Assembly (NCBI GenBank): GCA_963971425.1
Contig: OZ020524.1
Location: 21,505,022-21,569,021 of the forward strand
Source: Bryoerythrophyllum caledonicum
Taxonomy: Eukaryota; Streptophyta; Bryopsida; Pottiales; Pottiaceae
Reading direction: 5' to 3'
Length of the DNA: 64,000 nt
In this document: positions 26,501-55,536 of the stretch, in pieces
Position numbering within the stretch: the stretch's first letter is position 1
Layout of the letters: each line of letters starts with the position of its first letter
Made by a program: the position numbers and the translations under genes
The notes under the pieces: generated by a model
The model's database searches: none
The model's input: only the letters and a program-made list of their open reading frames with translations
What the model was told of the DNA's origin: nothing

Positions 26501-26746
26501 CCTTCATGGTTTTAAACCACTTAGGCAATCCCCATTAACGGTATTTCCTAACTCATCTAATAACTATCCTAAAATAGTATTAACTCAAAACTTAAACTAA
26601 TTAGTCTAAGATTATCATAATTATCCTTCTAACTGAAAAAAATTGAAAATTCGTGGTACGACATGGACCAAGTCCCTCTAATTTCTGGAGGGACTTCCTC
26701 GTCCGGGCACCAATCTCCGGGACACGGACTCGGGTGGTGCTTGGGG

Positions 26747-26764
26747 GGTGAAAGTCCACTAAGG
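26747..26764 (+). repeat. left terminal inverted repeat of the 16-kb element
   Basis: GGTGAAAGTCCACTAAGG, preceded by the presumed target copy TGGGG. It pairs with 42772-42789. Confidence 0.75.
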
Positions 26765-29606
26765 TGGTATATAAATAGTGTCACAAATGGGTTTGGAAAT
26801 AGTCACAAACCTTCTATTGCCCAAAAGTGGAAATGTGGGACCAACCTTTGAATTCTGCTGATGGAATGTAGAAGGTAACTTGAATAAAAGGGTGGAAACC
26901 ATAGGCGAGTTTAGTTTTGACTAATGGTTTGGGCAATCTAGGTATATCTTCCAGATGTACATACTTGTCACAGGTATACAAAATCGCACAAATATACTGA
27001 TTTTGAGAGTTCTAGGAAGTAAAATACTTTGAAACTTGTATGACACATCCACGCCACAATGTTTTCATATATTTTGATTGGAAATTCTAGATCGGCAAGT
27101 TATTTTCACTTTTATTGCTAAAAAATATGTTATTTTTTCAAGGCTCCTGAAATAGGGATCTTTGTTGTTTCCTGCTTTGATTTCTTATCGAACCAGATAC
27201 ATCGTACAATAATCCATCTTCGAGCACAATTTTTTCCTACTAAAAGGTTTTTTATCCATAAATTTGGGTCAAATCAAGTTTTCCAGGGTCTGCGTTTCTT
27301 GATATACTTCGCTGTATATATGGTATATTTTCCATACCCTACGGTATGTATTATACTGAAAGACGGGAAAGGAGTGGGCAGCTTAGATCGCGACACGTGC
27401 CTTCTACAAATGCAGAAACGTTGTCAGTCGAATGGCAGTGAATATTTAGTTGAACTACATGATATCTAGGACTTTAATGTGGACGACGTTCTAACTTTGC
27501 AGAGTTGCATGGCTGCCGTAACGTCATTACTTGGGTGTAGACTGTGTGCGGCGGTGGTGAAGATGGTCTCTGTGCCAAAAGGTGGTGAAGATGCTCTCTA
27601 CGCTAGCGTAACTTCTTGGAGCATGCTCCATCCAACATGCGCCTGAAGGAAAAATCAGAGCCCTTCAACGAGTCCACGATAATCGCACACCGGTGACCAC
27701 ATACAAAGATACCAGGTAAGTCTCTAATTTCTTCCACTTACTGAATGTCGTTGAAGTTTTGATGAAGCCAGATTGTCGTCGACAATGACGTTTTTCACTC
27801 TGGGCTGTGTTGTATGACCCAGATACATCAATTTCTAGGTCGGGAGAAGATGGCGCTCCAGTATGTGTTGTCCGAATAGAAAGAAGCCCACTATACGTGG
27901 GCGTCGGTTTAGGGTGTGAAGTACGCGTAGCTTGGTTGTCATTCCTCAATGACTCTGCAGACGCCAAACCGAGGAATGTTTACTTGACCTACGAAAAGCG
28001 ATCAGTGGGACGGTCGCATCGTAGTCAAGTTTTCTTACCCTTTGTCACTCTGAGGTAATTTTGGTGCTATTTGTTTAGGGTGTGTTCTGAGTTAGAAGGT
28101 CTACTCATCTGTAAAGACGTCGTTAACCACTACGTGATGTGCTCATGGAAAATAAGAGGCTGGGTCTACAACGCACATCCAAGTGGTTTGAAATCAGTTT
28201 CATGGTGAGATCCATATGACATGCAGGTTGAAGGAGGTTGCGGCTTGTCGGTGAGAAGGGATTGTGCAACACGTAATATTTCTTGAAATGGGTGTTGGTT
28301 GCAAGGCATCGTGCTCAAACATGCGGGCTGTCATCGAAATGAAGATAGGGTTCGGACCAGGGGACTATCAGGCAGGTCTGTGTGTTGTAGTTCATTCAAT
28401 TTTTGAAAGCTGTAGTGAAGAGTAGAAAATTGCAACTTATCTAGTGTGATGTTTGTATTGCTTTTTCAGACTGCCGAGGCTCTTCAGAAGGCCCTAGGAA
28501 AGGATAAAGTGTACATCAAAGGAATTCGCATACACAAAGAACCGAGTTCCAGCACTCCGAAGCCTTCATACATCAATGTAGATATTTCCTCCACACAAAA
28601 CATAGGTGATAGTTCGGATATATCATATACTGAGAAACATGGGGACTACAATGCCAACGTGAAGTTTAAGGTACCAACTCCTGCACTTTTTGTGGATTTT
28701 TTCATAGTACAGGCGCGAGAATATCTTCTGAAACTTCCTCAGTCGGTTTGCCAGGTAATAGTAACTTCGTGCCGCCTTATATTGCAAGGAAAAGATGCTC
28801 GTGAGAGAGCTGAAAAGACCTCACTGGTCCAGTTGAGCAGACCTCAGTGGTCCGGTTGAGCAATGTAGGTGCTGAAGTTGGTGCCGAAGAGATACAAGCC
28901 GCTTGTGAGTTGATTGGCCGGGTCTAGAAAGTGTGGGTACGACGCGATGGTTCATTCGACGTATATTTTCATCAGACAGAGTTGGGAAAAATGCCACGAA
29001 TCATGAGCAGGTACAACTGATTTGAGTTCTGGAGTGGCTGAGTTGCAAGTCTCACATGATTTCTTGGTACTCAGACTTTTATTTGTGGATGTCTTAATAT
29101 GGTGTGGACTGTATTTTGGTACAGACTGAACGAGGTGCAATTGGGAGGGCAACTCTTGCCAGCGTAGTCGTCATCTTATATCAATACCAACTCATACTTG
29201 TGTTTAAGGCGATGAAGATAGGGTTCGGACCAGGGGACATGATCGACAATAAGACCGACGCGGACTACATTTGAAGGGACAGTCGTAGTATCTCTAGTAT
29301 AAAACCTGGAAATACTGAGGTCTTAGGTATAACCACATGGCACTGGGGTTAACAATTGATAGATTTGCTAAACCTAGTACGACATATACTACTATGTACT
29401 ATGTGCAACAGAGTCTGTGCTCCATGTATACAGTATATATACTTGAATATAATGCATTGGTAGCTAAACTTCTGTTATTTAGAATAAATATATAGTCCTA
29501 GGTATCTGCATAATGTCGGTGGCTTAGCTTTATTTAAGTCGTTCAAGGTATATTTGTATGCTTTATACATTATGATGCTTACTTTGGTAATGTGTGCATT
29601 GTAGAA
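26765..29606 (+). other. left arm of the 16-kb element, possible short exons
   Basis: Mostly non-coding. Two stretches look exon-like on the + strand. 27807-28054 contains GCEVRVAWLSF and NVYLTYEKRSV and ends at a GT donor. 28470-28755 is bordered by TTTTTCAG and CCAG-GTAATA, and contains KVYIKGIRIHKEPSS and DYNANVKFKVPTPAL. Their splice phases do not fit each other directly, so I cannot build a gene. A 27-bp direct repeat lies at 28339-28365 and 29212-29238. The segment may hold a fourth, small gene or promoter sequence of the transposase gene. Confidence 0.4.
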
Positions 29607-32600
29607 ATGGTTACTACTAGGGCTGGAGATCGTCGGAGGGGTGTGCATCGGCCGCCTGCATCACGTGAAGGAACAGGCGTGGGGATGTCTAGAGATGAAG
29701 AGGACGCTGCGCGTGTCAGGGAAAATGCAACAGAGAGACAACGACGTTCTAGAGTGAGAAGAGGGGAGCTTGAGGAGAATTCGCTTCAGTTGGCGTTGGT
29801 GGCTAGGGTTCCAGCTGAAGAGAACGTTGATCGACAAGATGTCCATTGGGTGTCGTCGCGCATTTCAGATTTCATTCTCAAGGAACTCGTGAATGCCGGG
29901 GAGGGTCCTGCTTTCAGACAGTCTGTATTGGAATCGGTGTTGTCTAACAGAAACATAGCCCGGCACTTGCCGAAGTGTTACCGTAGTAACTCTGATGTAA
30001 GAGCTAGTCATGCTTTTCTTGAGTCGTATAAGAAAGAGTTGCGGCTGCTGAAAATTCCATGTTCGAAGGAGAAACTAGTGAGAAAGAAGACCTTGCTGGA
30101 GGCTGTGGTTGGTAGTGAAGTGGCGGGCGTACGAGCATTGTCAAAGGTTTTGGGAGCAAATCCGAAGTGTATTACTGCAGCTGTGCAACGACGTCAAAGC
30201 CTACAGCCCAGCGGATCCTCCATTTTCATGTTGCCTGAGCGACGGAAGAGGCCCGGTCTTTTTGTCGCTACAAGAGACCTTGTCATATCTTGGTGGTGTA
30301 CAGAAACCCGTGTGAGTCCTAACAAGAAGGACGTGAGGAGAAGGCGGATGGGGCCCAAGGTGTACGAGACGCATGCAACCCACTTCTTCCTTGAAAGCCA
30401 GGTACTTCTGAACACATCCTCTGCTCTAGGTATATTCCATGTGGTCGATCGTGATAGACACGAATTTCCCCAACACACATGTCAAGTGTGAAGCCTTTTA
30501 GATATTGTATATGGCCTCTTCCCACAAGCACTATGGTCAGTTCATATACTTTTGAGATCCATCTTTAGGTGTTTTTGTGCATATTGCTAGTACGTTGATA
30601 TACATCATAGAGGTAGTTTATATACTCCAGAAATCTTTCATACAAGAAGTCAACAGGGCTTGTCCTCTATACACCATGACATGATGTAAAGCCCTCAACC
30701 CGCTCGAGAGTTGATAAACTTCGTAGAGGTCTTTCATATACTCTAATAGACTTTGGTCATGTCGATCATTACAAGGGGTTGTTCTCATGTATACCTCGAC
30801 AAAATATAGACCCGTGAGTCATTACATGTTGATGTACGTTGCAGAGGTATCCAATATACAGTTATACTCTAGTAATATTTCATACGGTGTGTCAACATGG
30901 CTTTTTCTGAAATATACCTTGCGATAGTACTAACCCAAGAGTCTTTGTATGTTGGTATACCTTGAATAGTCACAACTATACACGCATGCATAGTCTTTCA
31001 TGGGGTATGTCAACAGGGTTTGTGCGCAAACATACCGTGATAGAATAGACACTCATGAGTCATTGTATGTGTAGGTATTGGACACACTATAGAGTTTGAA
31101 CCTAGAAGACTTACAGTATAGAATATACACGTATGTATTTAATGGAGTATATAGTTGTCGCCTATGGAGAGACCTTACTGGTCTTATGCATAGTTCCTAT
31201 GTTTGTGAACATACCTTTTATGTTTAGTGTATTCATAATACTATGTGAGGACATTCACGTACTACTGGGGTCCCATGACACCCAATTTTACATACTTTCT
31301 CAAGGTATCCAGTGGTGCCCATTACAGAACCCTGGTCTATTTGTATACCTCAAAGAAGTATCTGAGATACTTCATCAGTACGAAGCAGTGTGTGTACATA
31401 CTAGGGTATATACTCATATACAGTTCGAGAGGGTATCTTCTAATCTCATAGGATGCACTGTTCTTGTCGGTTGCCAAGCTTCTTTGGTAAGGCTACATGT
31501 GTGGCTATTTGTTATACACTTTACTGAGATTTACTTCCCTTCTTTGTCACGCAGGCTTCTTTATACGATCGATTTAGGGCATTGCATCCAAACGAGCCCA
31601 TTTCAATGCGAGCTTTTGAAAGACTGCGGCCCTACTTTGTGAAGAAGTGCAATGAATGGAATGTATGTTGTTGTAGGTACCATGTGGAGCTTGACATGCT
31701 ACGTCAAGCTCTACAATCATTGAGGGATATATCAACTGGTTTCCACGTTCGGGCCTCGTGCCATTGTAGATGTGTGGTGTGTGCCAATGGGGTTGATGTG
31801 GGGTGTACGGCGCATGTGAACAGGTTTGATGGAGTCACAAAGATGTGGGAGGTGGTTGTGTGCCCAAAAGAGGCAACCGAAGAATTCCACCGGCTGGAGT
31901 GCTTGGTGGGTGACTGTTCAAGTTGTGGTGGGCATACCTTGCCAGTCTGCCCCCTAGAGAGTGGAGCGTCAGGATTTCAATTGAAGTGGCGGCGTTTTGA
32001 CAGTCACGTGGTGGGCGTCGGTGACGATGGAAGACCAAGGAAGCGAATCAGTGAGGTTTTCATGGAGACCAGTCCGAGTGAATTATTTGACTACTTGCGG
32101 CCTAAATTGCACAAGTTCATCACTCACAATTTCGTGGCAAGGTGGCAAGACGTTCAGTGCAGGGTGAGCATGAAGGAGCTGCCCCGCGACGTTATACTGT
32201 CGCATATTGATTTTGCGGAAAACTACACCTTTGAGATCCAAAATGAAATTCAAAGTATGCATTGGCAATCGAGCCAAATCACTGTGTTAGTCCACATTGC
32301 CTACAGGTATGTACCTACTTCAGATAGTGTGATCAAGGAGTCCCACTTCTACATATCAGATTATAGGACACACGACACTTTGTTTGTACAACACTGCTTC
32401 TTGAGACATTGGGATTGGCTTCGCGACCGTGGTGTGGAGGTCCGACGCCATTGGGTTTGGAGTGACAGTTGTGCGGGTAAGTGTATTCTTCTGTGTCGTT
32501 CATAGTTGCAAACTCTGTAGCTAGCATACTTTAAAGGAATACTATATATACTTCTATACTCTTATGTTGGCCTTTCGGGTAGCGACATATCATCTAGTTC

Positions 32601-33742
32601 CGCATACATATTATACTATCTCAGTCACCTACTATGTTGCGGTCGTTCATATACTTGTACCGTATTATGCAATTATATGCTTGTGTATTAAGATACCATT
32701 CAATTTTGTACAAAGCTAACATTATTACCAATACTTTACATAGTTGGTTGCCTGCCATGGCTTTGCAGGACAATTTAAGGGGGCACGGTGCATGTATTTT
32801 GTTAGTCGATATCCCGCCCTGACATGAGGCTGCCAAATGGAGTGGAGTTTCTTCGGTACAGGTCACGGGAAGGGTGAGTGGGACGGAGCTAGGGCGGTGG
32901 TGAAGAGGGCTTTGCGTGTGGAGCAGCTCCACAACCCAGCCAGGAAGCTTCAAGATGCGAGGGATGCAGTGGACTTCCTACACGAGAAGTTGGGAGGCTT
33001 GGTGGAGAGATCGGTTGGTGACGATAAAATAGTTTCATGGCGATACTTTCATTTTGTTGCAGTGGATGCAGTGGATCGGCGATACACACATGGGTGCGAT
33101 ACCATTCCTGGGTCACGACAATTCCATTCCATACGAGCGGTTTCTGTTGCCGACCTGACGTCGTTGTTGGTACGTTATTTAACATGTTATTGTCCATCCT
33201 GCTTGGATGGAATTTGGTTATTCTGTGAGCGGGGTGCGCATGTGAAGCCGTGGACTGTGGTCAAATTAGCACCGACAGATGTGACATTTGCAAGGATGAG
33301 TATGCAGCACGCACAAGGCAATGAGGGACAGGATGACACATGGAAGTACCGTGCAGATGAGAGCCTTGGAGACTTGGTTGATGTCGGCGACAACTTTGCA
33401 ATACGTGCAGACAAGGGCAACAACGAGGACGTGGACTTTTACATCCTCCAGTGCCAACAACAGAAATCTACTGTCCAAGAGAGGTTCACATGTAAGTGGG
33501 GCAGTGAGTTTGATGTTGGACAACACACCATTGCTGGAACGTATTATCAAAAGTGGGGTACCAGTCCAAATTCTTATGTATTCTTGAGAAAATCGCATGT
33601 AGCCCATGTTGATGCGGAATCAGTACTAGCTTGCAAATTCTTGATGGTTCCTGCGGTACACAGGGTCAAAGGTGGTGATCCTGTGTACCAACTTAGTGAC
33701 GAGACCATCGATGTCATTAGGACATCTCTGGAGAGTTTTTGA
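29607..33742 (+). CDS. DDE-type transposase of an unnamed family, three exons
   Basis: Exons 29607-30401, 31555-32476 and 32769-33742 have matching phases (0 and 1), GT donors and AG acceptors, and total 897 codons. Exon 1 is a basic N-terminal region (MVTTRAGDRRRG). Exon 2 has a Cys-rich block with NVCCCRYHVELDML and CHCRCVVC, then HIDFAENYTFEIQNEIQSMHW (first Asp, about residue 484) and WVWSDSCAG (second Asp, about 569). Exon 3 gives QFKGARCMYFVSRY and GTGHGKGEWDGARAVVKRA (third acidic residue, about 611), then a Cys pair and a C-terminal domain with VGDNFAIRADKG and YYQKWG that resembles BAH-like chromatin readers (tentative). These motifs match hypothetical proteins I know from animals and algae. 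A TGA at 32825-32827, probably from GGA, interrupts it, so this copy may be inactive. Confidence 0.75.
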
Positions 33743-34278
33743 GGTTGTCATTTGCAGGCAATAGTTAGCATTCGAAACACGGTCGGTACTTCTGGATCCT
33801 CTTTTCAATACAGTATTGGAAGGTCTGTAAGGCTTCACTAGAAAGTTTAGAGATTGCATGTAATAGGGTACCGCAAGCATGCTCGACTTTGTAGCATAGT
33901 GACACTATCCACGGTGCAGCTTATCGTTTTAAACTTTTCCCACTATATATAGAAGATAACAACAATGTGGAATGCGATGTAGTATACATTATACCACATA
34001 ACATGGTGCAATATGTTGGCTTTGTTTCATCAATCACAATCGACTTTGTAACCGCAATAACTACACAGTATCCGGACACATTTTAAACGATACATGTTGC
34101 CGGAACATGTATATGAAACAGTCTGCTATAGTTGTTTACTAGTTCTCTACAGTAAATAATATCCCCGGGTGTAAAATTGAGTACTTCACTGTGATGTGTA
34201 TATAAGAGAATGCAGTGTTTCGTAGTTTATATACTCTGCAATTTACTCTATGTTGTTAGTAATATACTTTTGGTGTAC
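33743..34278. other. spacer between convergent transposase and SET genes
   Basis: About 530 bp of AT-rich DNA between the 3' ends of two convergent genes. It should contain both polyadenylation regions. No further signal recognised. Confidence 0.5.
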
Positions 34279-35770
34279 TCATAGGTATCTTCGCCGAATT
34301 GCAAGAGTGTCGCGACAACCAACGCTTTCACATGCACACAAAAAACTAGGCACCTCGTTGGTTGTATCTTCGAAATTAATTCCATAGTCCCATGTGAGTT
34401 CTTCCCCCGCCAACACCTTTTCTTTTGTAAAGAACGCTACCTGCATACAGACCAACGAAACGTCAAACCTATAGATGTACTAGCACAGGCTTCAACTCAG
34501 GACATGTATAACAATAAAAGTGAAGGTTGTTACATATGTGGTAGTAGCCTGTCAAATGCCAGTCCACGATCACGGGGACATCCAACAAGTTTGCATCAAA
34601 GCACCTGCGTTGAAGAAGACGACAATAAAATTTAAATGCAAATGATGATGTTCAAAATAAAAAAAAACCTTAATAGACGGGTGTGTCATTCATATACGGA
34701 TTTGCAATGACCTATGATATAGAAATCTGGAGACGTTTCCACGTCTGCTGGCGTCAATTGAGAGGCACTCCTTGTTGCTGCGCTGGCCTTCCAATCTCCA
34801 ATTTGCGTCCAAGTCAAGAGCGTACTTACCTTGGCTGTGACTTTGGGTGTCCACATCCTCGCTGTACGATACCTCTCCAACGTATTCGAATACAAACGTG
34901 CCTTTCGGCAAATCCTCCAAGGTCTTTATGCCCCAGCCCTTCTGGTGGTTCACCCAACATACTTGCGAGAAGTTGAGCATGAAATGTAAATATTAGGATT
35001 TCTAGACCCGAGACCACGAGTGAAAATTACATGACTATTGGACACTCAACTTCAAGGATATTTTGAAATGACGAACCTGGAGCTTCCACGTGACTCTCTT
35101 CTGGACAACACGGTTCTTACAATGAGAGTTGCACTTACATGCAATCCCACATTCGTTTATAAAAGTCCTTGTTATATGCTTGATACATCTCCCAACCTCT
35201 GTATTAGAGCAACCTGCACTATCACAGTACTCATACAATCTGGTATCCAATGTAGTACTCTCCTCCATTGCCTGCAACGAGACAACAACAATCTCTCTAT
35301 AAACTTTCCCTGAGGCGCCAAACATGACGAAGTTAACAATCCCTATTGTAATCTTCAGAAACGGGATGACCAAAAAACTACAAATTGCATGCTCACAACC
35401 ATGATACTCTACAATTTAAACTTACCATTTCAACATAGTGCTCGTGAAGGATGCCATCTTCGGTGTACGGGGCACAATTTGCAGCAAAGTAAGCCCATCC
35501 GCATACATTCCTCTTCCCCACACCGCACCCAAAAACACATCTTCTGCAACCATCCAATTGTTTCACAGCTTCATTCACGTCTACACAGACAACCTTGCTT
35601 AATGAATTTTCTACGATGTACTCAAAAGGAGCCAGTTCCATGGGTGGGTCTCCTGTGACAACCACAACAATGGGAATCCGTTCACGACCACCAAACAAAT
35701 CATAAGACCATTGTACAAATCCGACGCCCTGCATGCATGAAGCCAATATCTGCATTACAAAACCACCCAT
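34279..35770 (-). pseudogene. SUVR/SUV39-like SET-domain histone methyltransferase gene carried by the 16-kb element
   Basis: Five exons: 35770-35426, 35271-35077, 34962-34712, 34604-34538 and 34440-34279. They total 340 codons in consistent phase. Pre-SET part: ERIPIVVVVTGDPPMELAPF and a Cys-rich GCRRCVFGCG, then CGIACKCNSHCKNRVVQ. SET part: KGWGIKTLEDLPKGTFVFEY, DANWRL, the NHxC region, CFDANLLDVPV and EELTWDYGINF. Post-SET: CACESVGCRD. The order is that of plant SUVR-type H3K9 methyltransferases. Lesions: the catalytic-site Asn of RFxNHRC is Tyr (RFLYHRC); the exon 3 acceptor reads CAA instead of CAG; the exon 4 donor reads ATATGT instead of GTATGT. The start is uncertain: 35770 is the first ATG, but a CAG acceptor at 35729-35730 suggests a further upstream exon. 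Confidence 0.85.
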
Positions 35771-36373
35771 AGCATGTACCCTTCCATGATGTGATAGGGG
35801 CCAATGATTTTAACAATGATGCCTATCATTGAAAGATAACTTCAAGATCTCTATCCCCTATACAAATCAAGAGCACAGTAAAGTCTAAAATAGCGCAACA
35901 TCTTGTACACTTTTGTATGCTACACTATACTGCAATACATGACAGTGACCTGCAGTATACTATAGTGTTCCACAGTATAATATAGTATGATGCAGTATAA
36001 TAGAGACTTCTTCAGTATACATCAACATACTAATCAAAAGTACATCAAAGGTACAAATCAAATATGCCCATCTCCCATTGGTTAGAGTGCAATACATATT
36101 ATGCAGAATTGGAAGGGAGTAAAGTGTCAGCGTTGCACTCAAGGACCGAGGAGACGAATGGAATCTCGGCAAATAGACATACAAACGATGTATGTATGGC
36201 AACTTCACGTCTCCATACATACTGCCCAAGCTAAGATCAGAACCACTTCCCCATAACTAAAGTAAAAACTTATGCAACGTGACATAGCACATTGCCTGGC
36301 TACAAAAGATGAAAATGCCATTTTTGCATACACTGCCTACAATAACTCTTATTAGGCACATGTACTAATACCG
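35771..36373. other. spacer between the two - strand genes of the 16-kb element
   Basis: AT-rich DNA with many CTATAC/TATAGT words. It could hold the promoter or an upstream exon of the SET gene, but I could not identify one. Confidence 0.4.
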
Positions 36374-39300
36374 CTACTTAGTCTTTGCACTCTTTACCTT
36401 TCCAGCTTTCGTCCCACTAGCCTCGTCCCCCACTCCATCTTCAATACCTCGAGCATCAATATTCTTTCTCTTACCTGGCTTCTTCTTCGTAGTATGTACA
36501 ATGGCTGCCACCTCAACAGCTCTATGGCCGCGTGTCTGCATCTTGCCCTTCTCCTTTGCCCGTGTCTGTGCGCCAAGAGAATCTGTATCGGCAACCGCAG
36601 TAGCAACGTCTTTGCCACTGCCTACGACATTTCTATGCTTCTTTGTCTTCAACCCCTGAATCATGTCTCCACACTCCGCAATCAGCCGTGCCTCCGTGAT
36701 GAGCTCGTCTTCACCTTCCAAACTGGGCACTTCATTGTCCATGTGCTCACTCCCTGCGGCCACAAAAATATTTAACAAATTTGAACATGTGGATACAAGG
36801 TGGTCGCAATTAATATAGGCATGTCAACCAAACTTGAATCATCCATAACAAGATTGAAGAAAGCACGGGCAAAGACACAAAGACGTCAAGACACCAATAT
36901 AAAGACTCTGAGTACTTGATTTTATGAGGACTTCCTTCTCGTTCTGCCCAACACAAGTACCTTTACTGGATTTTTCCACGCCTGTGGATATGTCCTTACG
37001 ACTCAGAGGTGACTTCACCTCCTTTGCTGGACGCTCAGCTGGCATAGGCTGCTTCATGAAGTCCACTGCTGCAGGCGTAGGTGAGGCTGCACCCTTCATT
37101 GGTGACATACACATTAAGACATGTGGAGAGGAACTTGGCTGTGCGGCGGGGTCCACAGCTGTCCGAGGATTTCTTCCACCGCCAACACCTGGTGATACGT
37201 ACGAGATCATTGGGGTGGTGAAAACAACGTCGTCCTTCTTTGAGTTGTACAACACTCGACGTGGGGTGCTAACTGCATCATCCAAGGCCGGCGCCTTCAA
37301 TGCGCCCGTTGAGAAAAGAACAAGGTCAAGCACCGGGAACTTGGGAGTACCTCCAGGTCGAGAGGGATGTCGAGAGTCACAGCTAGTCACAGAGTTGACC
37401 TTGAGCTGGCTAGTCTCACCAGCATTGTGTGTGCCCGTGGTGGTTGAATTGGGGCTATGCTCCACATGGGATGTACCTACAGTCCCCAATGTCCAACAAA
37501 ACCCATGCGTGAGCATCTGAAGACACTCCATCACATTAGTATACAAATATACTAATTCCGTGTACATGAAAGTATTCTATGACCCATAGAGATGCAAAGC
37601 AGCGGAGTCTTAAGTCTACAACCAAGTATACAACCTTCGGCATCACATCCCACTCATGCACCCTACACATAAAGCCCAGGTATACATTCCACCCAAGTTG
37701 ACAATTCGTAGAATATAATACCCCATCCAAGTACAAGTGACATGACCCAAATATACATCCCATACAGGAAACTATACCCCACCTGAGTATACGCCCCTAT
37801 CAAATATACACCCGAAACAATCATATACTACACACCCAAGGTTACACTCCTACCCAAATGTATACTCGTGCAGTTCTGTATACTCCACCTGATTATATAC
37901 ACCTATCAATGGCCTTAACCCGTTACTGTTCTATATATTCCATCAAGGGTATACACCCCTATCAAATACATACCTGGTACAGTTGAATATACTCCACCAA
38001 GGGTACACACCTCTGTCAAATATACACCCAATATAGTTCTATATATCCCACTGATGATATACACCCCTATCAAATATACATCCAGAACAGTTCTGTATAC
38101 CCCACTGAGGGTATACACCCCAATCAAATATACACCCGTTACAATTCTTTATACCCCACGGAGGGAATACATCCACCCAAATATATACTATTTAGTTATT
38201 TACATCCCACCCATGTATTGAGCCCTCCCTAAGTAGCCATGTTAGACAGCCCACACTATGCACCCTAATGATACATCAAAGTATACATTCTCCATCACTA
38301 TTCTCCAAACCCCGTCCAGATAGACATCCACGGAGGTCCGTGCATACACCCAGATGAAGAGAATTTCCACATTTACAATATATCCTAAATCGATAATATA
38401 CCCGAACACACTCTTAAACCCACGCATACACCTCTACGCAGACTGCACCCACTTATCTAAAGATCCAAACCCACTCTACATTCCCGAACTCCGAAGTATA
38501 CCCACCCCGGGTATACATTGGTATGTAAGTATACTACAGACAGAATGAGCCCTAGGTATATATGGAAAGGCTTACCAACTATAGGGCAGGTCTTGTTTGC
38601 TGCCACTGTGCGTGCTGAAATCGCCAGAACTCTTGACAACTCACAATTTTGGATTTGAGCCTCCTGATCAAGGTCGTCAGGCAGCTCTCCATATCCATTG
38701 CTCTTGTACCACTCGGGATGCACTAGTCCGCAATCCTTTGATGCACATTTTGCACTCGACTGGAACCACACCGTTGCACACCAGAGGTGATATACATAAA
38801 GGCAACTGCATACTTGGATGTCGTTGTGAGGGAAGGGAAGGCCGCAAACCGCGCATGTCCTCCACCTCAATGTATTCCACGAGGTACCATCCACCTCATC
38901 GAGGTACACCATGGGATGTGGGAAAATCCCTAAACTGTTGTATCGTGTCTTCAACATCCCACCGAGCTTCACCAGTCCTTCTGCCTGCGTCCCGAGGATT
39001 CGAACTCTCCATTCCATCTTGGAAATCAACTCCACTTTGCAATCCAAGTTGGCCTTGAGGATGTCAAGCTGGTCGCCAGCTTGCCTATACATGTCACTAT
39101 AGAAACCGTCCTACAACATGAAGTGCTGCATCTGGGTGTCATCCTTGCACTCACCCATACGCTTCTTGGCAGCATTCACTGTTGCCTCCATGGTAGAAAC
39201 CAGCTGACCCTGACCAAGGATCTGCTGCAGGAGACTCTCGTGATCTTTTTTCACGGTTTCCAGCTCCTTCCTAGCAGCTATAGTCTCCAACTTCACCAAG

Positions 39301-39994
39301 GTGAGGAATTCCTGAACCTCCTTCCTCTTCACACATGTCCAAGATGAGGAGCTCTGAGATGGCTTCACGTCCAACATCCCCGAGAGAGGGTCGACACCCC
39401 CGTGCTTCACATAATTTCCCCCTTCCAAACACGTGAGCAATCCATCTTCCTCAAAAATTTCAGCAAGGCCCTTGTTAGACTTGCCTTCGCCTTCGCCAAG
39501 CGCAACACCTTCTTGCGCCATGTAGACCTCTGAGTAGTATTGGTGACAAAGGCATACCCTGCCCAGTCCACCTCCATCCCCTTCACTACCTCTGCAACCA
39601 CCCCCAGTGCGAAGTGCCGATCCACGAGCTTTCCTGGCGGCCCCCCCGCCTTTTGATAATATATACAGTAATACCTATCAATGGCCTTCAGTATGGCGCT
39701 GTCGGACACCTTCCGATATGAATACCCGGACTTCCCCCCACGCTTTGGTCCAAAGATCTCAGCGAGATCATTCTCGCCCATGCCAATCCTCTCATGGTAC
39801 TTGTGTGGATTCAGACCACCAGCGTGAAGCCTATAATCATCCCGAAACATGTCGTACGTGATCGCACGTGGAGGCGGACCTCTCAACAAGACTCCTAAGG
39901 CGTTGTCAATGTCCTCAAGCGCAGAGTCCTTCTCCTCTCCACCCCGTCAAGATTGACGACCTTGTCCTCTTCCTCCTCTTCCTCTTCTTCCTCC

Positions 39995-40033
<39 letters not shown>

Positions 40034-41391
40034 TCCAACTCTTCCTTGGAGTCATCATCGCTCTCACCCATCTCCTCCGAGCGCGAGACGCTCCTTGCAA
40101 TGGACAATTCTGTCTTCTTAGCCACCCGCTTTTGCTTCATCTCCTGCCTCCCCATGTCCGTCTAGCAAAGTTGCTATGCTTATTCACACCTAATACAATT
40201 ACATATAGAGGACGTTATAAACTGAAGACAAATACCACAAGGAAGCTACCAAATTCTAACCAAAATGAAAATCAACTACAAGATGCATAGCAGACTCTGT
40301 AGTATACTACATTGCCAAGTATATAGAATACATGGGTGTGACATATACACAGCAGTATACAAGAGTGTCATACATAATAGAGAGTTTGAGTACGACGTGT
40401 ATCTTACCGCACTCACAATCAAAGGATGGAAGGGCATTCATCTTGAACAACTTCATAAGTTTAGGACTTCAACGAGCAATACACTAATAAAGTGCAATTC
40501 ATCCCATGTACAAACTCTGGTGCTTACCTCGAAGGTGTAGAGGAACTACTGTAAACATGGGGACGTGTTGTCCAAACACCGCTTGGGATCGACCTTCAAA
40601 TATCTACTGGGTTAGCATCCGTTACCATCACGGCTGCCTTCCCATGTCGACTCGTGCTTCAACGCCTCGGAATGACGACCCACAAGGTTGATACCACAGA
40701 ATAAAGTGGACCTCAAAATACTACAATGACATGTGTCATACAAAAGTTATTGCGATATATTATACTACAATGTATACAAACCGTCACCGAAGCATATACA
40801 CAATCAGAGAAGAATACACACCCAAACCGAAGCATACACACAATCAGGGAAGAATACGCACCCTCAACTAAGAAAAGACCCGGATATACATCATACACCC
40901 GGGTATACATTTTATAAGCAGGTATACATCCAACCCGAGTATACACCCATACCCAAGTATACAAGCTACCTGTGTATACAACTCCATGTATGTAACATGA
41001 CAACCTACCCGGATATACAACCTATCAGGGTATAAAACCTACTCAGGTAAGATACATACCCGGCTATACAACCACGTCCGAAGGTAACCCTGAACATCAC
41101 AGCTTCATCCACGTCCAATCCTCAACACCACATCCTCATCCACATTCATTTGACGTATGAATTCATCCTTGGCTACATAGCTGTAGTGAATTGTAAATGC
41201 TAATTTCCATGGCAGTATACTAAGTTGTAATAGGAAACTACAGTAGTTTTGCACATACACGGACCTAATCGCAAGAAAGACAATACATACCTGAAACCTT
41301 TGTCATTCTTCACGTGGAGCTCGTCTTCACCATCTTCCAAGTATGCTAGGCCGAACTCATCAGCATGGGGGTGATCATGCAACACCTCCAT
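36374..41391 (-). pseudogene. acidic coiled-coil zinc-finger protein gene of the 16-kb element, five exons
   Basis: Exons 41391-41291, 40711-40528, 40143-38576, 37476-36895 and 36753-36374. The phases of all four introns agree with GT...AG sites. Exon 1 starts MEVLHDHPHADEFG. Exon 3 has a basic start, an uninterrupted Glu run, a block AEIFGPKRGGKSGYSYRKVS with IDRYYCIYYQKAGG, a coiled coil (KLETIAARKELETVKKDHES) and a Cys/His cluster (CAVCGLPF ... CSCLYVYHLWC ... CASKDC) like a PHD/RING-type finger. Exon 4 is Pro/Ser-rich. Exon 5 ends in a Lys-rich tail (GTKAGKVKSAKTK). Lesions: TAA and TAG in exon 2, TAG at 39111-39113 in exon 3, and frame changes at the Glu run and near 39500. Probably a nuclear, chromatin-linked protein; function unknown. 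Confidence 0.7.
37770..38170. repeat. 54-bp minisatellite in an intron
   Basis: About six or seven degenerate units of 54 bp built on GTATACACCCCTATCAAATA and ending in CCCCACTGAGG-like sequence. It lies in intron 3 of the zinc-finger gene. Similar GTATAC-rich words recur at 38480-38560 and 40790-41050 (intron 1), so several introns have the same low-complexity style. Confidence 0.75.
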
Positions 41392-42771
41392 CTACTCCTA
41401 AACCTGTGTCGGCAAAGACCAGAAGTAAGTCATAGGATCTGTCATAGGCAGCTATACACATCAGAACCAACACCAAGTAATCCAGCAAATTGAACATAAC
41501 CTTCATCCCTATACAAAAATAATGTCCACGAAGAGAGCATGAACCTCAATCTCCTCGCACCTCCCAGCCCGCACCTACAGTACAATAGAGCTTCATATGG
41601 CAGTGTTGGAGCCCGAAACGTGTCCTTTCGACCTGTCCGAGATGACCCTAAACCGTCGACCTTGCAAAGACTTCGATGCAGCCGCTCTCAACCCTGCATC
41701 CAGTATGGAGTAGATAGTGTTAAGATGACACGGGCAGCTAAAAAACACAGGTCCAGTAAACCCACATCTTGTCTTCCTCTCTCCTCTCACAATCTCCCTA
41801 ACCCTCTCCAAGGTTTCCAAGCGGACTGTACACCAGAAAGAAGTAATGTCTATCTACTACATACACCCTAAACCCTTAAGTCTAGAGCAGATATCTGGAG
41901 CAAGAAAAACACTTACCCAGCGCATATGGACGAGAAAAACATGCACCCTCTCTGCAATCTGGCACACCAGCGTCAGCTCCACCCTAAACCAGCGTCAGCT
42001 CCACAGCTGCTCCACAATATGCGCCCATAGAAATTGATTCATTTGTGAGCCCAGATCTTACATCTTCTAGCATTCTACTGCAAGCCTTAAACCGAGAGAA
42101 TTAGCGCGAGACCACCTGCCAACAGTTCATTGCTAAAAAACACGAGGCCCTTCCAATGAAAGCGGAAAAGCTTGGAAATTCGTGGAGAGCTGATACTTAC
42201 AGTAATAGCCCAAACGTGCATCTAGGACACGCTCCCTGCCTTGACTCCAAATCTCCAGCGCACCCTAAAGCCTTGACTCGCAGTAATAGCCTTGACGCGC
42301 ACCCTGCCGATCCTCCAAATCTGCAGCGGTAATGTGCTGCTAGCCAAGAGGGGCGTCCTACTCTCTACTTCGATCGCACAACCTCCTTGCTAACGCCTGC
42401 AACGCCGCAGCACCCGATCATGCACATGCGAACTCCAGATGTGGTCGCCAAATCTTGCAACACCCTAAACCCTCTTCACCGAGCACAAATCCACAGCTGC
42501 ACACGCGAAGAATGAGAGCTGGGAAGTAGGAACGAGCCAGCCAGGTCCCCCTCATAATTTACACAAACCGATTAACTGCCACGCCACGCGTCTTCCCGCC
42601 ACACATTCAATTGAATGCGCCGTTGTTGACCATTAACTCCCATCTAAGATCTATTCAACGGCCACGAATACCCGAGATACACAAAATGGACAGTTCTCAT
42701 TGATCAGGTTGGCTTACAAAGGGCTGCGGAAAAACATACTTGGAGGTATACTTTTGCCCAAAAGTGAGTAA
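41392..42771. other. right arm of the 16-kb element, no gene
   Basis: About 1.4 kb upstream of the zinc-finger gene start, running to the right inverted repeat. No coding pattern accepted. Repeated words such as CACCAGCGTCAGCTCCA and CTCCAAATCTCCAGCG/CTCCAAATCTGCAGCG occur near 41960-42330. It presumably holds the promoter and subterminal sites. Confidence 0.5.
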
Positions 42772-42789
42772 CCCTAGCTGACTTTCACC
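42772..42789 (-). repeat. right terminal inverted repeat of the 16-kb element
   Basis: CCCTAGCTGACTTTCACC on the + strand, i.e. GGTGAAAGTCAGCTAGGG read inward. It is followed by A and the presumed target copy TGGGG. Confidence 0.75.
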
Positions 42790-42790
42790 A

Positions 42791-44526
42791 TGGGGGTCGG
42801 CTTTTCCAGGAGGATCCGGCAGGCTCATGGTCGGTGGCATTAGCAGGTCCAGAAGAGTCTTCAGTATCTCAGCCGTGCAAGGGTTGAGAGATACGATGCC
42901 TTTCGCCGGTGTTTAAAGTGACGGAGTATAGAGGTCCTCCGGATTAGCTGAGGTACTCGGAGCTGAACCGGATCGGACTGTGGCGGTCTCAAAGGAGCCG
43001 TGGTCCGGTCTGGAGTCATGAAATCTTCCGGTACTTGGGCCGCCTTGTCTTCCGGTTCCACCAAGGTGATGTTGCTTACCAGCAGCTTCATCTGTTCCCA
43101 GGTCTGGCCATCTTCTCCGCCTGATCAAGGAGGAACCGGAAGATATTGGCCCTCGTCACCTTCTTCTCTTTCTCCACCAGTTCGGTGAAGAGTTGGCTCC
43201 GGTTGACCGTGTCCACCGGAAAGTTCAAGGCCTCCCGGACTCCCGTCAAGGCGGCTACCGATGCATTGGCTCTTGCCTCTGCCTATTTCCAGCCCATCAC
43301 TGCCAGGGCTGTCCACTGTCGCATGTGCATTACCTTCTTCTCCAACTCCATGTTGGATTTGTACAAGGTGGAGACTTGTAGGTGCATTGCCTTTAGGGAC
43401 ATCTCCTTGCTCTGGAGATCCTCCACGCGGCGGATTGCGTCTTCTAGCCGATCGACTCCCAGACTCCAGAAGTCCTGTTCCACGCTGGTTGTTACGATGT
43501 ATTTGGTCTCTTTGAAAGCTGCCACTCTCCAGCCGAGCCCGTGCAGGAGGTCATCAATCTTTTTCAAATGGCCCTTGGAGTCTTTCGGGTCAAGCTTCAT
43601 CTTCTTCCGGCTGACTTCTTTAAACGGCCCGGAGTCGTCTGCACTGGAAAATTCGGACGAGCTACCGTTGTCCGGACTCTCCGACTCGGGCTCTTTCCCT
43701 CGAGTCCTCTTCTGGGCCCTCTGGTCTTCTTTCGGAGTGTCCGCTGTTGCTGGTTCTGAACTTGGTTCGGCTGCCTCTCCGGACTCTTCTTCCGTCTCTC
43801 CACCTCCATACTTCTAGAGGCTGAGGACTTCCTCATACAGTCTCAGCCTGCTTGAGTGAGCTCTTGGTGGTGGCAGTAGAGATGCACCATGTAGGAGGCC
43901 AGAGGAGTCGCCAATTTCCTCACCTTTTGGAGTTTGGCCACCAATCAGTTGATCATCTCGCACATCAGCATGCCTCAATCCACTAGTATCTTTCCCCGGA
44001 GTGCTCTGAGGAAAGTGCACGCCCACTTCGACACCAACCGCTTCGGCTTCTCCGGATGGAAGATAGGGTTTAGAAATCCTAGCACCAGATTGGCGTCCTG
44101 ATGCTTCAAATCCTGGAAGCTGTAACCCTCTTTTGGATCGGCCTTCCCTTCGAACTCCTCCACCAGGAATTTGTCTCGCCGTTCCACCACCTTGGTGCGG
44201 CCGGCCCAGAAGTCCTATGCCTGTATCCATTCCGGAACTCCCCAGAGTTTTGAATGGGCCCGCAACAACCCTTCGTACTTGGGATCCGGGGTGCCGATTA
44301 TCTCCCGGACGTATGCCTCCTCACGGATGCCCCAAGCGACTTCGAGAAATCCGTCACAGCCCATGGTCTTCAAACTCTCCTTCAAGAGGTTGTATTCGTC
44401 CAGGTCTGTGGGGATTTCCGGCAGCACCCTTGTCAAGGGTGGAAGCGCAGCGGCCGGCTCTTCGTCTCGCGTTCCTTGCCCATCTCTGTCAGTTCTCTTC
44501 TTTTTGGCCATGAGGACCGTCTTCAT
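42791..44526 (-). pseudogene. N-terminal and central part of the host element's gag-like ORF
   Basis: Begins near MAKKKRTDRDGQG at 44511. Family signature: LKESLKTMGCDGFLEVAWG, then GLLRAHSKLWGVPEW, KADPKEGYSFQDLKHQDA and FLNPIFHPEKPKRLVSKWA. Next come CEMINWLVAKLQKVRK, ASYMVHLYCHHQ, an acidic Ser-rich linker, a Lys-rich KEVSRKKMKLDPKDSK, a coiled coil (LEDAIRRVEDLQSKEMSLKA) and LLVSNITLVEPED. Close to the 16-kb insertion it reads LKTLLDLLMPPTMSLPDPPG and stops at the insert. At least four stops or frameshifts (for example TAG at 44215-44217) make it dead. The frame continues at 26746 on the other side of the insert. Confidence 0.75.
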
Positions 44527-50507: not shown

Positions 50508-50752
50508 TGTCAAGAACTGAGAACGGAACGGTTCACATTTTGACTACAATCGCATTCAATGTCATCTTTCAAGAACATGAAGAATGCAAACTGAATTAAT
50601 GGACATCATATTCATTAAACGAAAACATTACAGAGTATTACAAAATGCCAGATGAGGAATACATTCTTGCTACTAACTTTATATAGGATTCTATCCCTGT
50701 AACCGTAATGTAACCGCTAAGTCCAGCTGTCACTACGAGTGGAGTCGTGACA
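50508..50752 (-). repeat. 3' LTR of the chromovirus
   Basis: 245 bp, starting TGTCAAGAACTGAGAACGGA and ending GGAGTCGTGACA. The pol frame runs into it and stops at 50733. Confidence 0.95.
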
Positions 50753-53660
50753 TTACCCCCCTTTTTAACGTTCTGGGTGCTTGAGGATGTAACTTGTCAA
50801 ACGTTGCCACAGCGTCTGGGGCGTTCTCAAGATTCACTGCAGGTTCCCATGAATTTTCCTCCACACCATATCCTTTACAGGAAACTAAGTACTGAAGTTT
50901 TTTCCAGCGTCCAAATAGTCTGGAATCCAGGACTTCCTGCACCTCATATTCTAGATCCCCATCCGGAGTAACAATAGGCGGTGGAATTGTGGTCCGTCGT
51001 CCAACAATGGTGTCTTCAGAATATCGTTCCAGGAGTGATACATGGAATACATCGTGAATTCGTAATGAACTAGGAAGTTTAAGGCGATAGACTACGTCTG
51101 AAAGTTTCGAAATTATGGGAAATGGACCCAAAAATTTCGCTGTTAACTTTAGAGATGGAGAATCTGTGGAAATATTGTCATGTCGAAGTAGAACCCTGTC
51201 GCCGACTTGGAAAGCTGGCGGAAGTTGCGCGCCTTTGTCGTAGTTGCGTTTAGCCTGTTCACCAGCAAGTTGTATCATAGTCTTGACTTCCTCGTGAATT
51301 TCCTGCAAATATCGGACTCGATCTTCGGCAGCTGGGACTGTGGATGCAGACGGTGTCGTAAATGAAAAGGATGGATGGTAGCCATATGTCGCGTAAAACG
51401 GCGAGAATCCCGTAGCAGAATGAAATGCATTATTATATGCAAATTCAGCCATCGGAAGGAGATCCGCCCAATCATTCTGACGTCTTGTGGTGAACATACG
51501 TAAATACTGTTCGAGAACCTGATTAACCCGTTCCGTTTGCCCATCTGATTGGGGATGAAAAGTAGTGGTGGGAGATGGCTTGATACACAATAATTCTGAT
51601 AATCTTCTCATAAATTTTGATACGAATACTGGACCTCTGTCTGATATAACTTCTTCCGGTGTACCGTGGTACTTCCAAATGTTATGCAAATAAAGTGAAG
51701 CCATTTCCGGTGAAGTAATTGTCTCACTGGTTGGAATGAAATGACCGAGCTTGGTATTTTTATCAATTACCACCATGATGGAATCATACCCACTGCTAAT
51801 GGGAAGCTTTACTATAAAATCGGCAGATATGCGTTTCCAAGGAGCGTGAGCAGCTCGGATGGGTTGAAGGAGCCCATAGCGAGCATGATGTACAGGTTTG
51901 GACCTTTGGCAAACATCACACCTGTCGACGTAACGATTTACATATCGTCTGAGTGTTGGCCAGTAAAAATTAGGACTTACCAATTCCAAAGTTTTAGCAC
52001 GCCCCTGGTGTCCAGCTGCAGGAGCGTCATGTCTAGATCGAAGGATTTGTCTATAAAGTTCTGCATCATCCGGGACATAGATGCGATCATGGAACCGAAG
52101 AATATCATTGTTGTAAGTATATGGCTGTAGTCGACTTCGAATGTCTGTTGAGAGCTGGTGTGCATCTTTACGCAAGAGATCCAGCAAAGGTTGAAGGACA
52201 AAATCTTCTTTTACAACAATTTGAATTTTTTTAAGTATGCGATCATCTGTCCATACAGGTGGACAAGATTCGAGTGCGGCCAGTCGTAGAAGGGGACGAG
52301 CGAGTGAACTTCGGCCATCCATCAGGTCCACTCGTCTTGACAGGGCATCTGCCCGCCCATTTAATGATCCAGGCCGATGCTGAATTTGGAAATTAAACGT
52401 GGATAAAAATTCAGACCATCTTGCCTGGCGTTGGTTGAGCTGTTTTGTTGTAAGAAAAGATTCCAAATTCTTGTGGTCTGATATGACGTTGATGGTATGT
52501 GGGGATCCTTCCAAGTATACCCTCTAGTCTTGGAAAGCAAGAACCACACTAAGTAATTCTTTGTCGCAGATGTCGTAGTTTTGTTCAGCAGGAGTCATTT
52601 TTGAGCTTCTGTATGCACATGGATGCAAATACCCATCTGTGCCGTATTGTGAGAGAATCGCCGCAGTGGCCATGTCGGAAGCATCACTTTCCACTACAAA
52701 GGGATTCTGGAAATTGGGATGTATTAATATGGGTGCCTGTATAAACATGAACTGAAGTTTCTTGAAAGCATCATCTGCCTGAGGTGTCCAAACGAAAACC
52801 TGACCTTTCTTTGTCAACGCTATAAGTGGCAATGCAACTCGTGAATAATCAAGAATAAACCGTCTATAAAAATTTGCAAAGCCGAGGAAAGCTTGAACTT
52901 CCTTTACTGATTTTGGTATGGGCCAATCCTTGATTGTTTGAATTTTATCACGACACATTTCAAGCCCATTTGAAGAAACTATCATTCCCAAAAATTCCAC
53001 CGAAGTTCGATGAAACTCACATTTCGATTCTTTTGCATAAAGTCCGTGGTCCTGCAGCCGTTGGAATACTTGTTGCACAACTCTGCAGTGTTCATCCATG
53101 GTCTTCGAAAAAATCAAAATATCGTCCAAATAGATGACCACAGATAGATCAAGGAGGTCACCAAAAACATGTTGCATGTGAGATTGAAACTGCGCAGGAG
53201 CATTTGTCAAGCCGAAAGGCATGACCAGATATTCAAAGAGACCATATCGGGTCTTAAAAGCTGTTTTGTATTCATGACCAGGAGCCATGCGAACACGATG
53301 ATATGCTTGTCGAATATCAAGCTTTGTGAATATTTTGGCTCCCACCAAGCAATCAATGAGCTCGGGAATAAGTGGGAGAGGATATCTATTTTTTATGGTA
53401 ACTCCATTCAAATTACGGTAGTCTATGCAAACTCTGATAGAACCATCTTTCTTGCGAGCGAAGACAATGGGTGCAGAAATCGGAGATTTAGATCTGCGAA
53501 TCCATCCTTTGCCCAAATTCTCTTCTAAATATTTGCGCAGCTCCTCTAATTCCCTTGGAGACATAGGTTGTAATCTAGTGTTCCGTGGTTCCTGTCCATC
53601 TTTCAGTTCAATTTTTATGTCTGCGATACTGTGATTTGGTAATTCATTAGATGCAGTTTA
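50733..53660 (-). pseudogene. chromovirus pol: RT, RNase H, integrase, chromodomain
   Basis: RT: PLIPELIDCL, VVIYLDDILIFSK (catalytic DD) and GFANFYRRFI. RNase H: FVVESDASDMATAAILSQYG. After a TAG at 52524-52526, in the place of the usual Trp codon, the same frame continues with YLEGSPHTINVISDHKN. Integrase: the zinc region HDAPAAGHQGRAKTLE and CDVCQRSK, then the DDE residues in ISADFIVKLP, EVISDRGPVF and PQSDGQTERVNQ. The C-terminus is a canonical chromodomain: LEYEVQEVLDSRLFGRWKKL, then SWEPAVNLENAP. A TAA at 53658-53660 separates it from the protease part. With only two nonsense changes it is close to intact. The chromodomain is of the Tcn1-like type reported from mosses and fungi, rather than the degenerate type common in seed plants (family knowledge from memory). 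Confidence 0.9.
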
Positions 53661-54626
53661 ACTGAAAGCTCCTTTTAAATCACTGTATTTCTGACGGAAT
53701 TGAATTTGAAATTTCAGCTGTACATTCTGAGACCTCCAGCACGTATAGATCGGCATCGGTATCCGACAGTTGAAACGCTGCAGCTGAAATAACAACCGGC
53801 GAAAAATTCGAAGAAAGTTCTGGACCAATGTCGTTACTGTCCGAATTTTTCTTCAATTCCGAAGTTTGTGTGTCAGTGGATTGTCTCAAATCTTGCGATT
53901 CATGAAATCGCGTGGTTGCCTTCTGACCTAGTACGAAATCCTGAAATCGCGATTCCTGAAATCGGTTGATTGAAAACAAAGGTCCCACCGGTTGAATCCC
54001 TGTGGACCTGAGTCGTCCATTTTCTCGTTTTCTTTGCCATTATATGAGTGACTGTCTGTTTCATCCCAGTCCAGTAACCCCGGTTCCTAAAACTTATCGT
54101 TGAAACAATGCTTTTGGCAAAACGAAGAAGCCAATGTAACTTGTCGTTGTGACCAGCAGATGGTCGGATCATGGCGAACTAACCATGGCATTCCAAGTAT
54201 GTAGTCATAATGGCCGGTGTTAGTGATCTCTGCCAGTAACATCTCGTGGTGATTCCCAATGAATAACTCAACTTCATCCGTGGATGGTAAATATAAAGAA
54301 TCCATTCCTTTTTCATGAGTTTTTTTCCTTTCATCAAACTGGTTGTCCAGCTTTAATGCACTGCGTGATAATAAAAACGTGGCTGAAGCACTTTGAACTA
54401 TGCCCGGGTACTGAATTTCTAGATTCAATCCCGGGCTATGCCTTTTCCCGAGACCGCACCTTCCGATTCTGTAGTTGCTGCAAGAGATAATGGCCGGGAT
54501 GGATTGGTAGGACATTTGGATCGTATATGCCCCAACTCTCCACATCCCCTCAACGACCTTGACGTTGATATTCAAGTCTTTCTGCTGCATTCTTTGCCAA
54601 CGCTGGTGGTCCTCGAACTGCCCCAA
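53661..54626 (-). pseudogene. chromovirus protease region and zinc-knuckle relic
   Basis: Frame pieces with VELFIGNHHEMLLAEITN, then YDYILGMPWLVRHDPTICW, the segment that follows the retropepsin active site in Ty3 elements, and ALKLDN where the LIDSGA-type motif is expected. The gag zinc knuckle should lie near 54520-54560, but only a remnant (GDVESWGIYDPN in another frame) is left. The spacer to RT is degraded (53680-53990). Confidence 0.7.
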
Positions 54627-55536
54627 GTTCCATGGGTACTGGACCCGAGTTCACCGGGTCTGATGAGGGCCTCACAGGTAGGATACGAGAACTAAAACTC
54701 AAGTTTCTCAAATTGGAAGACTCACTTGGTAATCGACGAGTTTGCTTCCTACTCCAGAGACGTTCATCAATGCGGGATGACATCGCCATCCATTCATGTA
54801 ACGTGCGTGGCTGTGTCTTTGCAGTGGCTACTGAATCCAGTATTTCATCTTTCAGTCCAGATCGAAATCTTGCTACTAAACTAGACTCATTCCAATCCAA
54901 TTGAGCTGCATACTCATTGAAAGTAGAGATGTAATTTGCCACTGCTCCCGTTTGACGAAGCTTCCCAATGCGGTCCTCAGCGTTGTATGTTCTATCAAGA
55001 TCAAAGTAGATGCAAATAACTGCTTCTCGAAAAGCACTGTAATCCTCCAACAGATCATGCTTCCTTCCTTCATCAAGTGCTTGCAGGATTGGCATGGCCC
55101 AATTCTGTGCTGATCCAGTCATATACGAAAGCGCGAATGCAACTTTATCTGCATCTGACTGGTGCATACGTGGTTTTCCACGAAATACCAATCGGAGTTG
55201 TGCAAACCATCGATAAACTTCATTACCTTTCTTTCCCGAGAATTTATCAGGTGGAGCTACTTTCGATTCTGTGCTTCTTTCCTCCAATCGGTTATAGCTT
55301 CCAGGACCTCGTAGACCCCGATCTGCTCTAAGACTTGAACTTTGGGGAGACCGAGGGCATTGTCTCACACTTGTTTGATCAAGAACTTGCTGTATGACAT
55401 GGGGAAGTGCCGCCGGAAGGATGCTCTGTACCTGCTGTTGCACAAGTGCTGCCCAGTCCGGTGCAGCTTCCTCAGGCGGTGGAATGTTTCCTGGTTCCAT
55501 TAATTCTCCTTGATCCGCACCAGGAATACTGAACAA
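54550..55536 (-). CDS. chromovirus gag
   Basis: An intact frame of 328 residues or, starting at the second Met, MEPGNIPPPEEAAPDWAAL (about 318). It contains the retrotransposon gag core: PPDKFSGKKGNEVYRWFAQL, DKVAFALSYMTGSAQNWAMP, FREAVICIYFDLDRTYNAED and ISTFNEYAAQLDWNESSLVA. It ends with PVPMELGAVRGPPALAKNAA just before the zinc-knuckle relic. This is the virus-like-particle capsid protein. Confidence 0.85.
   Translation of the reverse strand: MFSIPGADQGELMEPGNIPPPEEAAPDWAALVQQQVQSILPAALPHVIQQVLDQTSVRQCPRSPQSSSLRADRGLRGPGSYNRLEERSTESKVAPPDKFSGKKGNEVYRWFAQLRLVFRGKPRMHQSDADKVAFALSYMTGSAQNWAMPILQALDEGRKHDLLEDYSAFREAVICIYFDLDRTYNAEDRIGKLRQTGAVANYISTFNEYAAQLDWNESSLVARFRSGLKDEILDSVATAKTQPRTLHEWMAMSSRIDERLWSRKQTRRLPSESSNLRNLSFSSRILPVRPSSDPVNSGPVPMELGAVRGPPALAKNAAERLEYQRQGR

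Follow-up and report, generated by a model that had tools for sequence, protein, structure and literature searches.

A two-gene terminal-inverted-repeat transposon carrying a SUVR-type SET fusion gene in the moss Bryoerythrophyllum caledonicum

Introduction

DNA transposons that bear a SET gene are already known, namely HarbingerS and the MuDR transposons of Phytophthora (Kojima and Jurka, Repbase Reports 2014, as cited in PMC12730594). Fungal DNA transposons of several superfamilies likewise combine a transposase with an enzyme acting on chromatin or DNA marks, in this case of the TET/JBP type, and escape from silencing has been proposed for them in the sections of PMC12730594 drawn on here. 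In this report, we describe an element of 26746-42790 within a 64,000-nucleotide stretch of the B. caledonicum genome (assembly GCA_963971425.1, contig OZ020524.1, positions 21,505,022 to 21,569,021; hereafter the window), which has terminal inverted repeats (TIRs) with TGGG at both sides and contains a transposase gene and a cargo gene that ends in a SET domain. The anatomy of this two-gene element is near certain, and we consider it likely that its SUVR-type SET fusion gene is under constraint and acts on the element's own chromatin or on host silencing.

The element resembles each of several described systems in part. HarbingerS and the Phytophthora MuDR transposons are also DNA transposons with a SET histone methyltransferase gene; however, as judged from that citation, they are members of the Harbinger and MuDR groups, whereas the present element resides in a plant, makes 4-bp duplications with a transposase of integrase-like type and carries a SUVR-type SET domain joined to a RING-like finger. 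The fungal TET/JBP transposons, in the sections mentioned, carry a DNA demethylation enzyme (PMC12730594), whereas the element carries a predicted histone methyltransferase gene. SETMAR of primates joins SET and transposase sequences as well, but in its summary descriptions it is a domesticated host fusion of SET and mariner transposase in one protein, whereas the element has two separate genes and forms a mobile family. The SUVR4 and SUVR2 proteins share the pre-SET and SET parts with the element and are the best sequence matches, but they are encoded by host genes and have an N-terminal WIYLD domain, in place of which the scanned element protein has a coiled coil and a RING-like finger. Among integrase-like DDD/E transposases, to which that of the element is similar, the excerpted account lists Ginger1, Ginger2 and IS3EU/GingerRoot (PMC10045372); the duplications of Ginger1 (4 bp) and Ginger2 (4-5 bp) agree in length with those of the element, by description only, whereas IS3EU/GingerRoot elements have TA..TA ends (occasionally TG..CA in GingerRoot) and usually 6-bp duplications. 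Membership of IS3EU/GingerRoot was rejected under that definition, since the element has GGG..CCC ends and a 4-bp duplication.

A literature search at the level of titles and abstract openings, with Repbase itself outside the search, found no plant element of this kind. An original prediction, made from the sequence of the window alone, had named the combination as undescribed in plants, which agrees with this search; SET transposons as such are cited for HarbingerS and Phytophthora MuDR (PMC12730594, in the sections drawn on). The novelty is smaller for that reason and lies in the plant host, the other transposase lineage and the SUVR class.

Results

A transposon family with defined ends

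The 437-Mb assembly (894 contigs) was searched with the end pattern, allowing at most one mismatch, and 260 + 294 = 554 matches were obtained, versus 9 + 17 = 26 for the reversed pattern that served as a control. Inside the window, the TIR pair with its duplication scores best of 413 candidate pairs; 6 of 100 random-sequence (Markov) controls equalled this score, which speaks against the ends as judged from the window alone and leaves room there for accidental inverted ends around a transposase beside an unrelated host SET gene. This borderline evidence is settled by the genome matches and by short copies bearing both ends, and such an accident, already refuted by hundreds of end matches and by six more copies in which the right end and both genes recur, is exceedingly improbable.

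Among 28 left-end loci sampled (L001-L008 and L037-L056), 26 are short derivatives whose match to the window left end stops at or before ~536 bp with 76-81% identity (about 78%); the other two, L046 and L054, are not short, with 93-94% identity to the full-length left end across 712 bp. The window right end was also matched by blastn in 23 of the 28. Twenty loci were scored for the duplication, the remaining eight being dropped where the pattern missed the right end (L004, L008, L041, L045, L046, L052, L054 and L055); a 4-bp duplication is visible by eye at L004 and L008, outside the count. The 20 scored copies are non-autonomous derivatives of 500-618 bp, most of them with GACTTCTACCC as the right end. 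The base preceding GGTGAAAG is G in all 20, and the target duplication, 4 bp in length, is perfect in 16, so that the window element is placed at 26746-42790 between two copies of TGGG. Thus the 18-bp inverted ends first proposed are real, with a true start one base earlier, whereas the proposed 5-bp duplication (TGGGG), which takes an extra base on the right side, is ruled out by the short copies. The rejoining of a flanking open reading frame (ORF), which had been offered as independent proof of the ends, is weak, as this frame extends just ~21 codons into the left flank. One short copy, L049 (C1:21555893-21556660), has DNA like the SET region of the element on both sides; because these flanks match that region, it was probably inserted in the SET gene of a different full-type copy. 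Near the ends, the word TTGCCCAAAAGTG occurs twice (Table 1), and of 5000 segment pairs drawn at random within the element, 5 shared a word of at least this length (13 bp), as did 2 of 5000 Markov pairs.

Full-type copies

Nine places among the matches listed have the window-type right end (AGCTAGGG, and AGCTAAGG once), and all were fetched as copies A-I. These copies were chosen by their right end, and presence or absence was judged in the fetched stretch (19 kb for E, 18 kb for H and I). The SET region is present in seven of the nine, and SET together with the transposase in six (A, B, C, D, F and G); for copy C, which has a short copy inside it, the fetched stretch showed no transposase exon 1. 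None of these six transposase-bearing copies, selected as they were by the right end, lacks SET, and with the SET region in seven fetched copies, SET was not seen as a single-copy host gene. These counts, and the constraint described below, support the proposal that the transposon carries a chromatin-modifier gene of its own.

From TIR to TIR, copy A measures 15,685 bp and copy B 16,069 bp. The six aligned copies (window, A, B, D, F and G) are 86-96% identical and fall into two lineages, window/A/B/D and F/G, which are 13-14% apart and identical in gene order. By the 4-bp rule, the flanks are TGGG/TGGG in the window, TGAA/TGAA in A, TTAT/TTAT in B, TCCT/TCCT in D, AAGA/TAGA in F and TTAG/CACA in G; the duplication is therefore perfect in four of these six (window, A, B and D), agrees at three of four bases in F and is lacking in G, with C, E, H and I outside the count. 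The last base of the right TIR is A in the window, C in A, B, D and G, and T in F.

One cargo gene of eight exons

The transposase (plus strand) and the cargo gene (minus strand, 40155 to 34279) are convergent within the element. What had been predicted as a five-exon SET gene and a separate five-exon zinc-finger gene is one eight-exon gene, encoding an acidic and coiled-coil part, a RING-like finger, a linker, a pre-SET part and a SUVR-type SET domain, and the splice sites that join its halves are kept, the exon 1 donor GTAA and the exon 2 acceptor ending in AG each in six of six aligned copies. The eight exons lie in a single frame in copy A, to the final stop, with 1145 codons aligned and 3 internal stops, and in copy B, with 5 internal stops; both copies read through the position of the window stop at 39111-39113. 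Extra introns in the coiled-coil part were considered, and the breaks are explained as frameshifts and a stop private to the window copy. The window copy is decayed: apart from the frameshifts and the stop at 39111-39113, the CAA acceptor at exon 6 is also a defect of its own. An independent metagenome protein (P0074), which shares 56% identity with the coil exon across 149 residues, is unbroken where the window shifts frame. The finger is labelled RING-like only because its match to zf-RING_16 (19.2 bits) does not reach the Pfam cut-off (27.4). A structure model of the N-terminal part of the coil gene, built from two sequences, was poor (pLDDT 46) and was not used.

Table 1. Coordinates of the element's features in the window
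Feature	Position	Strand	Remarks
Left target-site duplication TGGG	26742..26745	.	identical to 42791-42794
Left TIR	26746..26764	+	starts GGGTGAAAGTC
Subterminal word TTGCCCAAAAGTG, first place	26817..26829	+	within the window, exact only here and at 42754-42766
Transposase exon 1	29607..30401	+	exon 1-2 junction backed by Klebsormidium nitens P0021
Transposase exon 2	31555..32476	+	first and second catalytic Asp
Transposase exon 3	32769..33742	+	third Asp; in-frame TGA 32825-32827; exon 2-3 junction backed by P0001
Cargo exon 8	34279..34436	-	SET end, post-SET cysteines, stop
Cargo exon 7	34534..34604	-	SET
Cargo exon 6	34712..34962	-	SET core; acceptor CAA here, CAG in the other five aligned copies; NH motif is YH here only
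Cargo exon 5	35077..35271	-	pre-SET
Cargo exon 4	35426..35728	-	pre-SET
Cargo exon 3	36398..36753	-	linker
Cargo exon 2	36961..37476	-	linker, fast-evolving
Cargo exon 1	38576..40155	-	acidic stretch, conserved domain, coiled coil, RING-like finger; two frameshifts and stop 39111-39113
Subterminal word TTGCCCAAAAGTG, second place	42754..42766	+	
Right TIR	42772..42790	-	
Right target-site duplication TGGG	42791..42794	.	from the sequence and the 4-bp rule of the short copies

Identity of the SET domain

The SET domain match (1.5e-16) lies above its cut-off, and the pre-SET match (E 3e-05, 25.0 bits) lies under its cut-off of 29.1. Proteins named SUVR2 or SUVR4 among the matches are 34-39% identical, and EHMT1/2 are the top solved structures matched by the SET protein. 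In a SET-domain tree, the six element copies group together (support 87/89) next to plant SUVRs; given the very long outgroup branches and the angiosperm-heavy sampling, no closer origin is claimed from it. By sequence, the SET part is most like plant SUVR2/SUVR4, and a host gene of this kind was probably the source from which it was captured. A scan for WIYLD gave no match in the 794-residue R-F part of the element protein, in P0074 or in the coil ORFs scanned piecewise, and the same scan found the domain in P0053 and P0060. The NHRC (NHxC) motif is intact in five of the six aligned copies (A, B, D, F and G), its N is present in 20 of 20 relatives, and copy F is without the three residues following it. 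An inactive enzyme, considered on account of the YH motif and an odd pre-SET tryptophan of the window, was rejected, as both are private to the window among the six.

According to the portions of PMC7218100 and PMC4260354 used here, SUVR4 converts H3K9me1 in vitro to more highly methylated states, and SUVR2 functions in transposon silencing despite being inactive. Together with the NH motif kept in five copies, these properties would also suit a protein that silences or restrains its own element, by H3K9 methylation on new copies, and so limits the harm to the host. However, the known transposon-encoded modifiers are presented as countering silencing, at least in the sections of PMC12730594 drawn on, and we regard such self-restraint as unlikely.

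Selection on the genes

Ratios of nonsynonymous to synonymous divergence (dN/dS) were calculated by the Nei-Gojobori method with codons containing stops or gaps omitted. As means of eight between-lineage pairs, which have branches in common and are not independent, the values are 0.40 for the transposase, 0.36 for the coil and RING part, 0.48 for pre-SET and SET and 0.89 for the linker; within window/A/B/D they are 0.37, 0.38, 0.45 (SET) and 0.88 (linker), respectively. The bootstrap range for SET is 0.27-0.73 in B-G, the sole between-lineage pair tested, and 0.15-0.47 in A-B, and that for the linker includes 1 in both pairs; the near-neutral linker is an internal control in the cargo gene itself. 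Intron divergence between the lineages (0.08-0.17) is like dS (0.11-0.18), and the outer non-coding parts diverge more (0.24-0.29). Because decay after insertion drives dN/dS towards 1, the active lineage was probably more constrained than these values indicate. The constraint on SET and on the coil and RING part is close to that on the transposase, and the SET gene thus behaves like a functional component of the element; the pattern suggests that several related copies retain the gene as if preserved by selection.

Several observations, besides the shared branches of the pairs, weigh against the view that the SET gene serves the element. The close relative SUVR2 takes part in silencing although it lacks methyltransferase activity (PMC4260354, in the portion used), so conservation of SET need not mean catalysis. 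Copy E has SET and no blastn match of at least 250 bp to the transposase half in 19 kb, and copies H and I show neither transposase nor SET in the 18 kb fetched, only the right-end part and the coil region. At least one stop interrupts the transposase frame in each of the six aligned copies, and indels break the cargo frame in four of them (window, D, F and G). Copy A has a CAA acceptor at exon 3, copy G has one in the exon 5 or 6 region and reads TAA ahead of exon 8, and every copy comes from one genome. The stops and broken frames count in favour of a passenger, a captured host gene fragment of no benefit to the element, as does the fact that plant DNA transposons commonly capture host genes. 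Against a passenger stand the dN/dS values of SET and of the coil and RING part, both near that of the transposase with the linker near neutral, the gene order kept in two diverged lineages, and the fact that the cargo is a full gene with conserved joining splice sites. We therefore hold a mere passenger to be quite improbable and prefer a cargo gene that works for the element.

The transposase

The three exons first predicted for the transposase stand, although the frame contains a stop (Table 1), and the relative P0001 aligns gap-free across the exon 2-3 junction. The protein is RNase-H-like with three acidic residues, and its fold match is to integrases; it is near certain that it is a transposase of the D-D-D type, has a core like that of retroviral integrases and generates 4-bp duplications. 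No transposase family was found in a Pfam scan of the window exons, which also do not match DUF7869 (PF25273), for which a distant relative, P0051, gives 24.6 bits, below the cut-off of 26. The transposase profile has no match among solved-structure sequences, the top Foldseek rows are NurA and Argonaute-like chains with E 0.0014 or worse, and a search of the viral_contigs and genome_contigs sets found no relative. The relatives from C. fissa, C. japonica and K. nitens are known here from proteins alone. The annotation of P0021 (Klebsormidium nitens) places leucine-rich repeats in the same protein as the related transposase, which may reflect a gene-model fusion or real cargo.

The integrase fold also bears on the suggestion, made in the original prediction, that the SET/RING protein might steer integration, for example to particular chromatin. 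Some integrases are tethered by host chromatin proteins, an analogy that counts in favour of this putative role; we nevertheless assign it a low probability. Survival in heterochromatin, the other use of the cargo raised in that prediction, would be a further putative role.

Non-coding sequence and surroundings

TATAC/GTATA words are enriched inside the element (143 versus 41.8 expected) and depleted outside it (69 versus 129.7 expected). The enrichment sits in the larger introns and in the non-coding parts flanking both genes, and it is absent from the exons and from the stretches 34279-35728 and 36398-37476. In the left non-coding part, a 27-bp exact direct repeat lies at 28339-28365 and 29212-29238, and several open stretches on the plus strand at 27789-29271 resemble decayed exons of another gene. 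An extra gene at 27.8-29.3 kb was dropped, as copies F and G are without a blastn match of at least 250 bp to window 28342-29394.

The surroundings of the element are dense in other mobile DNA. By eye, an ORF at 11387-12055 resembles a Tc1/mariner transposase, a type uncommon in plants, and ORFs at 50733-55545 and 5060-8422 resemble Ty3-type and Ty1-copia-type retrotransposon polyproteins, respectively.

Discussion

We propose that the cargo protein, as an H3K9 methyltransferase, would act on the element's own chromatin, and that the changed H3K9 marks would alter host silencing of the element. Catalytic H3K9 methylation of some kind by the cargo protein is rather probable. The likeliest route would be that of SUVR4, in which H3K9me1 is raised to higher states and nucleosomes would thereby be diverted from the H3K9me2 silencing loop; that the element has such a SUVR4-like effect is a tentative suggestion. 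A fuller version is rather doubtful, namely that the element's own SUVR4-like H3K9 methyltransferase, retargeted by the RING-like and coiled-coil front, may rewrite marks on the element's own copies (for example me1 to me3, not me2) and so evade the loop between H3K9me2 and CHG methylation, as an anti-silencing histone writer.

With this element, the range of SET-carrying transposons comes to include plants, another transposase lineage and the SUVR class, which is itself involved in transposon silencing. The constraint on SET across copies is the strongest point, and it makes the question of whether a transposon may counter silencing with its own histone writer directly testable.

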